DNA of 25,014 nucleotides, taken from the NCBI GenBank assembly GCA_003024175.1, contig MDYQ01000318.1:1-25014 (forward strand), read 5' to 3'. The position numbers and the translations under genes are program-made. The stretch comes from Planoprotostelium fungivorum (Eukaryota > Evosea > Variosea > Cavosteliida > Cavosteliaceae). This document shows positions 6,802 through 12,404 of this stretch, piece after piece; within the stretch, counting starts at the first letter, position 1; every line of letters begins with the position of its first letter. The notes under the pieces are model-generated. The model saw only the letters and a program-made list of their open reading frames with translations. It was not told the origin of the DNA and searched no databases.

Positions 6802-9027
6802 ATGCATCGGTTGTCACAGTTTTTCAAACAAACATCTGCCAGAGAGCACAGTTGTATCCCCAGACGATTCATCAGCGAAGCTCCCTTGAAATCTAAAAAG
6901 TTTGATCCAAAATTACCCCCGTTTCAGAGTAGCACAATTTCGAGGAGTATAGATTATATCAACGGTCAGAAGGTCGAGGGTGAGCTCTATTCCATGTGCA
7001 TCTGCATTCAGCTTCCATCACGGTCAGGGCGTTGATTTGACGATAAAATAGTCCAAAAGATCGATGGAACGCCACGAAACAAACAAGAACGACCGGTAGG
7101 TTACGATCTCAAGGTACCATTACCTGGCTTTGAAGAGAAACCAGAAGGTATTTCTCATCTCTTCATATCAATCTATCATCAACCAGCACTTTGACGTTCA
7201 ATTGATCCCTCTTCCATCATTCGACTGATTCAGGCAGAGAAGAAGAGAGTGGGAGAGAAATGGCCGACTGTGATCACGAGACTGAACAATGGAATGCGAG
7301 TGGTCACACAAAACATTCCTTCACCCTCCTGCGCAGTCTCCCTCTTTGTCGATGCCGGTGCTCAGTACGAGACGGATGCCAACCACGGAGTGACTCACCT
7401 CTTGGAAAGAATGTCCTTTCAGGTGACTCACAAACGTCGACCTTCTCTGATTTGCGACAGTCGACGAAGAATATGGAATCCAAGAGATTAGTGGAAGAGC
7501 TGGAGAATCTGGGAGGTAACATCACGACGACCACACAGAGAGACATGGTCAACTACTCTTGTGAATCCTTACCCGAGAATGTTCCTCGCATGATCGAACT
7601 CTTATCTGACATCACAGTACGCCCTGCTTTTGCCGATGATGAGATCGAAGGTGAAGCGTTGAGAGTGATGGTGACTGACGAGGGGAAGAACAGAAGGAGG
7701 GGATCAAGATGGAATCGGAGGACATGAAGAGGAACAAAGACATACAGCCTTACATATCCGATATCATCCATAGTGTGGCCTACAACAATCAGCCTCTGGG
7801 GAGGTGAGTGGAGGAGAGAAGAGGATCTGAAGAGAACAGAGCTCTATCGACAGAGCCAGAGTTGGTGGATCAGTTGAATAGTCAAGTGGTAAGAGAGTAC
7901 CATTCGAAGCTGTACGTACCTCCCAGATTTGTTCTGGCGGTAGCTGGGTACGATCACGATCAAGTGGTGGAACTATCTCAACGCCATTTTAATGTTCCCT
8001 ACGCTCCGAGTGTAGTATCCAATGTGATTGATCGATGTATAGATGATAGAATAGATCGATCGATATACATAGATCACACAAAGAGGATGACACGTATTCG
8101 ATTGTACATCATGGATATATCAAGTGGAAGGGAGAGTGATGAAGTGAAGGTGACATCCAAGTGGACGGGAGGGATATGGATCAGAAGACAAGATGATCTG
8201 ATTGAAGAGATGGAGGAAGATCAGATGGATGAGGCTGTGGATGGCAGCAGGAGAATCCAAGACATCATGTCCAACTTGGTCCTGGCATTCGAGACGAAGG
8301 GTACAGCTGCAGAAGAGACCTTCCCTCTGGCTGTCCTCCTCTCCCTCTTTGGTGGTGGTGGTTCTTTCTCTGCCGGAGGTTGAACATCTATCCTTCATCA
8401 TCCCTCGTATGACATTCTCTATCCTCTATGTGTTCATTCGATATTAAGGAATGACGCCAAATAGGACCGGGGAAAGGAATGTACAGTCGGTTGTATCGAA
8501 ACGTGCTGAACGGTTACGGATTTGTAGACAGCGTGCAGAGCTTCACGTCTGGTTTTGCAGAGACTGGCATGTTGGGCATTCACGCCACGTGCAGGATGAG
8601 AGATAACAACTTGGATCACCTCCAGCAAACCATCGTCCACGAGATGCTGGACGTCGTCAAACGGATCGACTCGGAGGAGTTTACGAGAGCACAGAATCAA
8701 GCGAAATCGGGGATCTTAATGGCCCTTGAGTCCAGGAACATCGTTGCGGACGACATGGGCAGACAGATCTTGATCTACAACAAGAGGTGATCCCTCTTCC
8801 ACAGGTACATCAATAGAGACTGAGAGAGATACAGATACAGCGCAGAGGAGATCGTCAACAGCATCGACCGGTTGACGGTAACGGATGTACAGGATACACT
8901 CGCAAGGATCATGAGCAGCCGACCGGCGATGGTGCTGGCTGGGTCAGAGGCAGAATTGAAGCAGTGTGCCATGTTGAATGACGTGGAGCACCACATCAAA
9001 CAGCACATCCGCCCCACCGTCTTATAA
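6802..9027 (+). CDS. PMPCA: Mitochondrial processing peptidase, alpha subunit
   Basis: Substrate-recognition subunit of the matrix MPP heterodimer, which removes presequences from imported proteins. Joined exons give about 570 residues. An Arg/Ser-rich presequence (MHRLSQFFKQTSAREHS) precedes the M16 fold WPTVITRLNNGMRVVTQNIP ... GVTHLLERMSFQ. The zinc motif HxxEH of beta subunits is replaced by HLLER, as expected for the non-catalytic alpha subunit. The diagnostic glycine-rich loop [21 protein letters not shown] is present at about residues 390-410, split by an 84-nt intron (8381-8464). SKWTGG leads into an acidic insertion (DDLIEEMEEDQMDEA, about 340-365) that I do not expect in other animals. 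The segment 8024-8149 reads open but is best treated as a 126-nt intron. The intron at 7665 has several in-frame acceptors (29 to 44 nt). The last 32 nt overlap the opposite-strand gene. Confidence 0.92.
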
Positions 9028-12000
9028 AAGAGGATGGGATCGTAATCGCATTTACATTCTTATTTATTGCTGTTGCTCTTTGTGTGAGGAGTTTGAAGAA
9101 ACACTCTCTGGTGATGACTTCCTCTACAAACTCGTGGTGCTTGTTGTGACCGGTAACGACATTGTGTGCTACTTCGTGAGCAAAGGTAACCAGCCACCAA
9201 CACTTGACTCTGTCGTAGCTTTCGTTGGGTTGTAACACTTGGTAATACCTCAAATTGAAGAACAGACTATATAGGTGAGGGACAGATGAATAGTGATTCT
9301 TACTGTGTGTTGTGATTGAAGGCAATGGTCTCTTTGTCTTCGTAGAAACAGTGAACCTTGTGTTGGGGATAGTTGAATAACAAGGTCAATGATGAGATGA
9401 CCTCTCTGAAATTGTCTATGCACGTCTTTGTGCATTTACTGAGCTCCATTTGCCCCTGTAAATCTTTCCTCTCGCAGTAGATTCCTTCTCTGCCTTGAAT
9501 CCAATCCTTCCTCGAGAGTGTCTCACATTCTTCTATCCAAAAGGATTTCATTTGTTTTTTGAATTGATCGAGCAAGCCACTCTATCTTTGATTCAATTTC
9601 TTTGTTTATGGAATAGATCTATTTTACCATGTACTATGAGCGACACTCGTGGTAACTACTGAGAGCTGTGTTGAGATCCAACGTTTTGGATCTCAAACTA
9701 CCAACAATAGAGTCGTTACCGATAGAGTATGCTCACCATGTGTCAATAGGATCATGACTCACCGCATCGTTATTGTTGTGGATGTTGAATAACGTATTGA
9801 ATAGCAGTTGCTCTTGTTGAGCGAGATGGATAGGTCCTACCGTTTCGTGTCTCTGTTCAGCCTGAACGGCATTCCCCGGAGCCATCTCTACGGTGGTGAT
9901 TGGTGATGGATTGATCTCTGCAGGTGTGGGGCTCTCTTGTATCGTTCGGTTCAATAGAGAGACGAGGAGGACGTCAGCATTCACTCCTCTCTTTCCCATG
10001 ATGCGGAGGAAAGCATTGACGATGGATGTCTTGATGCATTGGCAGCTATTGGATATGCACTTGGAGATGTTTTTCTCTTTCAACCATTGATGCTGTGTAT
10101 TTCAGTCAGACATGTCAAACTGAAAAGACAGCGTCACCATTTGTGATCGACTAAGGAATCGAGCGTCGATGATCCACTCTTTCGGTTGTTTTCCCTGAAT
10201 GGCTCTTCCTGTTGTGGATGAGCCACATAAGAAGAGGAGAGATTACCTTGTTCGTCCGTGTGAGGAATGTCGATGACCAAGAGACAGTTTCCCGGAGGAA
10301 AGATCTTGAAGGTGAGGCTCAGTTTTGCTGAGGGACTGGTTGAGAAACACTTATCAAGTGTGTCCACCAGGCTTTGATGGATTTGTTTCTCAACGGCATT
10401 GCTCGGTCTCCAATCGGTCAAGCTGAGCCGAATGAGTGATGAATGTTGTGGATGCATCACCTTGACAAGTCTTTTCTCTTGATCTCCCACAGTCTGTCTA
10501 GGGTGACCATGTGCCTCGAAGTTCTCATCAAATTGTAGACACCATCACAGACGAGATGTGTTTTGAACTGTAGATATTCTGCCTCTTCTTTCATGTCCTT
10601 CTGTTCTTCTTTGTATGGCAGAATGGGAGAATCGGTCTTCAGTTCCCTGCGGAGGAGAGAGTTGAAGTACCTGTGCCTATCAACATGGACATCGAATTCG
10701 AGTTCTTACATGCAGAGTGTATCGGCAAAGGGGGTGCCTCCATATTTCTTCATCGCCTCCACAAATTCTGAACTCTGGTCCTTCGGCTGCGCTCCCACGT
10801 GTTTCAGTATGAATCTGTTCCATTCAATACGATCGATGTACTGTCTCACTCACTGACACATCGAGTCTTGAGCTCGACTGTTTCCCGCGAAGCTGACAGT
10901 GAGAAGTTTTGTGATCATCTGGCCTATGATGCGGTCGGACATGAGATGGTCTCTGTCTCTGCCTAATCCCAATTCTTTGTAGAGATTAGACGAGCCGATG
11001 TAGTTGATGGCGAATCCCATGGAGTTACCGACAGCTGAGCCGTGTGGGCTCTTCATCACTCGTATGCCCCGGATGTAGATTCCTCCCGCCATCTTCGATG
11101 TGTCAATGTCATCTCACCATCATTGATTCAATACTCATTCATATAGATGTTCGATCGAAGAGGATGTGAAGAATCGATCACCTGTTCGGGTCCATTTGCG
11201 TTGAATGATGGATTGAGAAACGGGGCAAACTTTTCGATCTGAAGGAAGAGAATATTTTGATCCGAATCAAAGTGGGGAGATGCGAGTTGATAGTAGGGAT
11301 TCAGTGTCAAGTGTTCGTTGATGTCGATTGCCTTCATCGTGTCTCCCCTTTGTACCACGTGATAGGGTATCTGGATGTATCAGGTGGCTTCATTTCATCG
11401 ACTCACTCGAATGGTGACCACCGTGTGTGGCTTCGGTTCTATCCGACTGAAATGAACGTGAAGAATCTGATTCTTGTTGTGGGAGAAGGTCCACTTTGTA
11501 CATCCCGTACAATATTCCACCTGAACAGAGGTGAGAAGAGGAAGATGGTGAGAGGATGATGAGAGTGGAGAGGAGATGATGAGAGTGGAGAGGAGATGAT
11601 GAAAAGACAAATGAGAGGTGAGTGAGAAAGAAATATGAGGAACGTACGAGGTAACCGGCGTCTGTCAGACAATTGATCGCAACTTTCATTCCTTCCCCAA
11701 AATGTCCGGCAGCACCCTCTCCTGTGAGAATGAGATTAGAAGGCAAGTTGATTCAGTGCTTGGATGATCACCTTTCTCACTGTGTCCAACGGCGAGAATG
11801 ACGGGATCTAACACCGTACTGAAATTGGTCATCACGGTGTAGATGGGGACACTTGCTACGACTGCTTCAAATAGACTGCCAAGTAGCTGTATCGGTTAGA
11901 AAAGTACGGGCTTGAGGATGAGACAAACTTTCGCATCTTGGTTGAATAATCTCCAAACGTTGATGCCGTCTGCGACGTCGAGATTTGAGGGAACTTGTTC

Positions 12001-12404
12001 GTACGTCAAGCGTGGATCTCGATTACCGTTGAGGTGTCTGCACTGATCCACGAAGTTTTGAATCAATTCACGTTGATTTCTGAAATTGGTTCTATTCCTC
12101 AGATAGGATCTGGAAGATGTCACATGTTTGTGGGTTGCACATCACATCTCACCCAGTCAGATTCATGTCCTTGATCCCTTCGCTCGGTGATACGTTCATC
12201 TTGTAGCGGGCTTCGTCAGTGATCAAAGGAGCGCCGTCCACTCTTTGCATCTCTTCCAATTTGGTTAGGAGATGGCCTAAACGCAAGTTAAATGCATCCT
12301 GGTCCATCATCTGTTTCTGGTTTGTTATCTTCTGAAACCCCAATCATCTCTTTCGCTCGAGCTTCGGCAAGGAAACTTCCCGTTTCTTCAATTAAGAATT
12401 TCAT
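8996..12404 (-). CDS. GHKL (Hsp90/sacsin-type) ATPase with C-terminal HExxH zincin-like motif
   Basis: Large minus-strand gene, about 15 exons and about 880 residues by eye. Residues about 110-125 read NQRELIQNFVDQC, matching the GHKL N-box (E-x-x-x-N). Residues about 162-195 read DPVILAVGHSEKGEGAAGHF then GEGMKVAIN, matching the glycine-rich ATP-lid motifs. A transducer-like part follows: GGIYIRGIRVMKS and LGLGRDRDHLMSDRI (about 310-360), which resembles uncharacterised GHKL proteins of fungi and protists. Then come DWRPSNAVEKQIHQ, a Cys-rich CISNSCQC and a long linker. Near the C terminus KCWWLVTFAHEVAHNVVTGH carries HExxH with further His and Glu residues downstream (HNKHHEFVEE), a plausible zinc site. 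Function unknown; an ATP-driven chaperone or protease is inference. The start at 12404 was chosen as the first ATG of the open first exon. The intron at 12338 has in-frame acceptors giving 28 or 40 nt. The exon 8/9 junction (about 10858-10914) is the least certain. Confidence 0.7.
9023..9028 (+). other. Possible poly(A) variant hexamer overlapping the PMPCA stop
   Basis: TATAAA, a variant poly(A) hexamer, contains the TAA stop codon and lies just outside the 32-nt overlap with the opposite gene. Confidence 0.35.
9645..9728. repeat. Nested inverted repeat in an intron of the GHKL gene
   Basis: The core 9671-9696 is a perfect hairpin: 11-nt arms TTGAGATCCAA and TTGGATCTCAA around CGTT. It is flanked by GGTAAC (9651-9656) pairing with GTTACC (9715-9720), and by ACTC (9645-9648) pairing with GAGT (9725-9728). 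The whole structure lies inside the 181-nt intron 9582-9762, the longest in this gene. It could fold the intron, or be the remains of a small inverted-repeat transposon, although no target-site duplication is obvious. Confidence 0.75.
11551..11606 (-). repeat. Intronic minisatellite, 18-20-nt unit, about three copies
   Basis: Units AGAGGATGATGAGAGTGG, AGAGGAGATGATGAGAGTGG and AGAGGAGATGATGAAAAG in tandem, inside the 127-nt GHKL intron 11521-11647. On the transcribed strand it is a pyrimidine-rich tract feeding the splice acceptor, analogous to the long STAG intron, so intron growth here again comes from polypyrimidine repeats. Confidence 0.85.

Follow-up and report, generated by a model that had tools for sequence, protein, structure and literature searches.

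The phage family phrog_6077 (e.g. AUR89347.1 of Vibrio phage 1.122.A) is made up of divergent GHKL proteins of 330-407 aa, which carry an N-box of the form E..N..D and a GxFGEGxK-like lid followed by a DRDR region, and whose function is listed as unknown in PHROGs. Fungal DUF3684/sacsin-like proteins may end in an HExxH domain. No paper naming DUF3684, PF12449 or IPR022155 was found in the literature searched. GHKL paraMORCs and relatives of sacsin have been linked to defence and stress (excerpts of PMC3710099). Concerning peptidases, Wss1, SPRTN (WLM, SprT) and other mini-zincins possess a small zincin domain close to the C-terminus, with the spacing HExxH-x5-H/D and little sequence past the third ligand; the latter is His at +10 in metzincins (HEXXHXXGXXH), and Asp at this place in Asp-zincins (excerpts of PMC3890501). 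An architecture joining GHKL and HExxH is not described in the titles and abstract openings of the papers listed on GHKL, sacsin, Wss1/SPRTN and zincins, and the pairing of an Hsp90-related GHKL ATPase with a predicted zinc protease seems to be unstudied.

Here, we analyzed a gene of Planoprotostelium fungivorum that appears to combine these elements. It lies on the minus strand of the window, a stretch of 25,014 nucleotides (G000:C279:1-25014) belonging to an assembly of 36.86 Mb and 471 contigs, in which all own-genome searches were carried out; its introns and genes are those of a eukaryote. Its ATPase resembles the phrog_6077 proteins in the N-box, the lid and the DRDR region, whereas the HExxH motif that the gene carries is absent from 8/8 phage proteins examined. 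Its C-terminal domain is similar to those of Wss1 and SPRTN in small size, near-terminal position, spacing of the putative ligands and the shortness of what follows the candidate third ligand, but differs by its fusion to a GHKL ATPase and by the fact that WLM homology was not detected. The main features are:

12310-8996, minus strand: whole coding region, 14 exons and 13 GT-AG introns of 36-181 nt
10247..12310, minus strand: N-terminal GHKL ATPase and transducer-like half (exons 1-10), assigned by hhalign to phage GHKL proteins
12043..12072, minus strand: GHKL N-box RELIQNFVDQ at residue 66, with E67, N71 and D74 invariant in 3/3 copies
11684..11787, minus strand: ATP-lid / G2 box GHSEKGEGAAGHFGEGMK at residue 147, split by the intron 11771-11722
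9763..10092, minus strand: exon 12, mostly variable linker, with 31% amino acid identity to the paralogue C235 over a linker of approximately 121 codons
9582..9762, minus strand: linker intron 12, 181 nt, GTGAGT..GATAG
8996..9581, minus strand: zincin-like domain (exons 13 and 14), the best conserved part, with 61% amino acid identity to C235
9128..9178, minus strand: HEVAHNVVTGHNKHHEF at residue 777, HExxH followed by His at +10 and +14

An initial annotation had noted an N-box, a glycine-rich lid and a distant HExxH motif, and had proposed that they belong to a single protein. All three are indeed present on the minus strand in one spliced frame of 836 aa, where HExxH follows the lid by 630 residues. 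The gene model was obtained by joining minus-strand genomic frames at GT-AG sites: from the ATG at 12310 to the stop at 8996 there is a single open frame once the introns are removed, and the intron phases are 2,0,1,0,0,0,2,2,2,1,0,0,2. The last intron (9303-9267) restores FNHNTHLFFNLRYYQ ahead of HExxH; several early searches (Pfam, PDB, own-genome, phage and viral) used a version of the protein six residues shorter before this motif. The coordinate 12404 given in the initial annotation was not confirmed as the start: position 12310 opens a stretch that aligns with the first aligned Met of the paralogues, and a further exon upstream of it is possible.

At the junction of exons 12 and 13, 60 paths with one or two introns remain open within the limits applied (GT-AG borders, 30-220 nt), and a two-intron variant of the linker gives a protein of 865 aa instead of the 836 aa of the simplest model. 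We favour the one-intron solution, 9762-9582, since it agrees in phase with the paralogue C235. Within this intron, at ~9670-9697, visual inspection shows an inverted repeat whose arms are 9 bases long (TTGAGATCC..GGATCTCAA). A search of the genome that skipped simple repeats and very common words found no second copy of the linker intron; since its own copy alone was recovered, the idea that it is a repeated element was ruled out.

A search of the genome with the protein returned 27 matching stretches, distributed among the window (9), C235 (10), C138 (7) and C92 (1). C235 codes for a complete protein of 847 aa in which both parts are present, and has 13 introns with phases and order identical to those of the window gene. 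Since C235 has both parts and shares the 13 intron phases, we read the locus as one gene with a conserved motif, which agrees with the single protein initially proposed. Identity between the window gene and C235 is 0.64/0.73/0.41 at the three codon positions (810 codons), third positions being far more diverged than first and second ones, and amino acid identity is highest in the peptidase domain (143 codons), followed by the ATPase part (53%) and the linker, whose borders are approximate. These codon-position and domain-wise identities indicate that both halves are under constraint. The third copy (G000:C138:37000-42000, L022) has a readable ATPase half and a motif that reads HEVPHN; by eye, neither the linker nor the greater part of the exon preceding HExxH is present. 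Because query residues 523-743 find no match there in the own-genome protein search, this copy may have lost the peptidase, and it may be a decaying copy. Concerning the 5' side of C235, an additional first exon with a hydrophobic stretch, LLTVWCFSIIIL, was noticed by eye (L023, ~4630-4380, minus strand); if real, this possible exon would give an N-terminal extension.

The C-terminal domain is found more widely than in these copies. When the genome was queried with the domain of C92, we obtained 9 matches in five loci, namely C92, C235, C279 (the window), C138 and C211. Profiles of the short form and of the long form (C92/C211) align with each other by hhalign at Prob 99.2 and E 7.7e-20 over 124 columns, within a homologous region of ~125 residues. 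In the pattern HExxHN-x4-HN-x2-H, the residues H, E, H, N, H, N and H are invariant in 5/5 rows. From composition alone, 0.07 HExxH motifs are expected per protein of such length; as the motif is kept in four other loci of the genome, beyond this expectation, the comparison indicates that its presence is not a matter of chance.

The initial annotation had also envisaged a third metal ligand, for which the His at +10 after the first HExxH His, within this conserved domain, is a candidate: it stands at the spacing of the metzincin third ligand in 5/5 rows. These 5 rows have V, A, E, E and A in place of the metzincin Gly at position 8, and a Met downstream of the motif, as in a Met-turn, is seen in 1/5. 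No Pfam model matched the domain above its cut-off, the one match below it being to a C92 piece (E 0.047), and the best PDB profile match, to a snake venom metalloproteinase (E 0.57, 28 positions at the motif), is at chance level. The fold predicted for the last exon of the window gene alone has a pLDDT of 41 and is uninformative. Membership of the WLM/Wss1 family was considered and ruled out: PF08325 has no match at E <= 10 in the window protein, and hhalign aligned its domain with the Wss1-type exon piece of the same genome (joined by eye) at Prob 11 over 17 columns. We consider the domain to represent a candidate peptidase family, matched by no Pfam model here, and predict that it is a zinc peptidase.

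The two remaining loci with this domain are DUF3684/sacsin-type genes, in which it lies outside the Pfam DUF3684 model:

C92:44613-50105: DUF3684/sacsin-type gene with the HExxH domain
C211:321914-327904: DUF3684/sacsin-type gene with the HExxH domain

Both have sacsin, HATPase_c_3 and DUF3684 stretches above Pfam cut-offs (pieces joined by eye). A genome search with DUF3684 gave 17 stretches, solely in these loci: 12 in C92 (7 above cut-off), collinear with model positions 3 to 1098 and located from 50105 to 46338, and 5 in C211 (2 above cut-off), from 326812 to 323335, the outermost stretches being weak. The HExxH exon follows downstream, at C92:44931-44707 (E 1.4e-44) and at C211:322078-321914 (E 4.5e-7), the latter accompanied by a weak match at 322228-322058 (E 0.11). 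From order and strand, we infer that the parts of each locus form one gene. These DUF3684/sacsin-type genes (PF12449, PF25794) resemble the window gene in having an N-terminal GHKL ATPase and the same HExxH domain downstream on the same strand, but they are much longer, and have a sacsin-type GHKL with an NDG box as well as a DUF3684 middle region. The window protein itself matches neither the DUF3684 (PF12449) nor the SACS (PF25794) model. DUF3684 was discarded as a label for the whole protein, given this lack of a model match and an hhalign Prob of 0.4 against the SACS part.

The claim that known GHKL families carry no HExxH is thus not supported, as two sacsin/DUF3684-type genes of the very same genome have the same HExxH domain after them, in this order and on one strand. 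The pairing of GHKL and HExxH is not unique to the window gene, and represents a recurrent and apparently undescribed architecture with five loci in this genome, one of them lacking connecting pieces. The window protein is best described as a short variant of it with a phage-type GHKL.

The kinship of the ATPase is less apparent from general domain libraries. The joined window protein matched no Pfam family, HATPase included, and no NCBIfam family; exon by exon, Pfam gave one match below cut-off, to MBDa (E 0.12). PDB sequence searches returned two marginal matches for the window protein (E 0.37 and 1.3), and a PDB search with one profile none. The lead to the phage family came from tblastn of the full protein against phages: 8 records reached E <= 1, the best of them 0.2, and their alignments cover the ATPase part. 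In PHROGs, phrog_6077 is matched by 3/3 copies (best E 1.4e-7, residues 132-204); P0001, from Vibrio phage 1.122.A, matches phrog_6077 at 2.3e-88 and Pfam HATPase_c_3 at 27 bits (cut-off 25). By hhalign, residues 1-521 of the three copies align with 8 phage GHKL proteins, a selection from 108 matching records (40 of them listed), at Prob 94.8 and E 5e-8 over 302 columns, and one control pair gave Prob 0.1.

At the level of motifs, the N-box E..N..D (RELIQNFVD) is invariant in 3/3 copies, and the G2 box / lid GxxGxG reads GAAGHFGEGMK in the window and in one paralogue, and GAVGHFGEGMK in the other. A G1 box DxGxG is lacking in the three copies, which have TNFSTVLDP, NNYNTVLDP and KNYNTVLDP at that place; its Asp is missing too in 8/8 aligned phage relatives. 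From the phage-profile matches, together with the N-box and lid that are kept, the ATPase is assigned by sequence to a divergent, phage-like branch of GHKL, and the relationship to GHKL put forward in the initial annotation stands.

A genome search with HATPase_c_3 returned 11 places, including C211 and none of the window, C235, C138 and C92. The phage profile aligns with the sacsin GHKL part of C92/C211 at an hhalign Prob of 89.6 (E 1.9e-6), whereas the ATPase profile of the window family has no direct match to it (Prob 0.4), all profiles used being small (2, 3, 5 or 8 sequences). The ATPase thus appears to be more closely related to phage GHKL proteins than to the sacsin type; profiles of two to eight sequences do not prove the order of branching. 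Similarity scans of viral contigs (with the full protein, A1, A2, P0001 and A9) and of genome contigs (with A9 and A5) confirmed no relative. This is weak evidence, because short peptide patterns are the starting point of such scans, and even the phage protein P0001 found none in the viral contigs. Among phages, relatives of P0001 occur in Vibrio (36), Pseudomonas (16), Pectobacterium (10), Escherichia (9) and other records; among the 40 of the 108 matches listed, one is annotated as ‘sacsin-beta sandwich’ and one overlaps a ‘chaperon protein’.

Taken as a whole, we propose, with a probability of about 0.5, that the window gene codes for an intracellular metalloprotease regulated by ATP and acting in protein quality control or defence. 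The divergent GHKL ATPase at the N-terminus, with its phage-type Bergerat fold and transducer-like middle, is predicted to bind ATP and to act as a clamp, which would hold substrate and would probably be dimeric. The variable, presumably flexible linker would connect it with a C-terminal zinc peptidase, small and of the mini-zincin type, whose putative site comprises the two HExxH histidines, the catalytic Glu, and the third His ten residues past the first. ATP-driven opening and closing of the clamp may then present substrate proteins to the peptidase or expose them to it, in the service of protein quality control or of defence against foreign elements.

Other explanations have to be weighed against this ATP-regulated protease. 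The C-terminal domain might bind zinc and yet be structural or regulatory, the protein working as a GHKL chaperone or clamp and using its tail to hold partners. The state of C138, where the ATPase part is kept and the linker is missing along with most of the exon ahead of HExxH, would fit such a role, as would the fact that no known peptidase family was matched above cut-off; however, the general-base Glu is invariant in 5/5 rows, and no other part of the protein is as well conserved as this domain, so that we see this explanation as possible but on balance unlikely. Somewhat less probable again is a dedicated defence or conflict protein, in which the ATPase would sense foreign nucleic acid or protein and then unleash the peptidase. 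The phage-type GHKL, the presence of P0001 relatives in 108 of 50,697 phage records, the three diverged copies, one of them apparently decayed, and the defence and stress links of GHKL paraMORCs and sacsin relatives mentioned above are all consistent with it. Against it, PADLOC gave one match in 1/3 copies, to PDC-M54A (E 0.0083), and in C235 instead of the window protein; this match is probably due to chance, as it covers residues 456-512, outside both motifs, at 11.4 bits, in a model of 1621 positions. Moreover, 8/10 neighbouring stretches scanned match Pfam at E <= 0.001, all to ordinary cellular families: M16 peptidase (two), Tub, methyltransferase, signal-peptidase-like, DnaJ, cohesin SCD, and an EIF3I-type beta-propeller that is below its curated cut-off.

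We regard as improbable a protease for damaged DNA-bound proteins in the manner of Wss1/SPRTN, with the GHKL part serving as a DNA or chromatin clamp. The HExxH-x5-H spacing is shared with the Wss1-type exon of the genome, whose local motif is similar (IHELTHMVWSDHDERF), but the lack of a WLM match and the short, low-scoring hhalign alignment speak against it, and the genome already has a separate Wss1-type (WLM) gene. Finally, some room for a chance HExxH motif, or for one that is part of a separate neighbouring gene, is left by the several splice paths at the linker junction and by a model drawn from genomic sequence alone. However, order, intron phases and motif are the same in C235, and homology is domain-wide over 124 columns; the intron phases and this homology rule out two separate genes or a chance motif for practical purposes, and we hold such an explanation to be very improbable.

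The ATP-regulated metalloprotease may be considered in a broader frame, which we put forward tentatively: eukaryotic metalloproteases gated by ATP would form a class in which a single undescribed mini-zincin is joined to both sacsin/DUF3684-type and phage-type GHKL ATPases. The recurrence of the same putative peptidase domain with two kinds of GHKL suggests that their pairing is of use in itself. Should the C-terminal domain prove to be an active peptidase, the protein would represent an ATP-driven protease that does without an AAA+ motor, and the uncharacterised DUF3684/sacsin-like proteins would gain a testable activity. GHKL clamps would then represent another driver of proteases, beside AAA+ motors and DNA-binding switches.

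At the 3' end of the window gene, the C-terminal tail is ~24 residues longer than in the paralogues, which end in FKLFNRWDD/FKLFNKWDN. By eye, the last 32 coding bases (8996-9027) overlap, on the opposite strand, the final codons of a plus-strand M16 peptidase gene, whose stop codon TAA is at 9025-9027.
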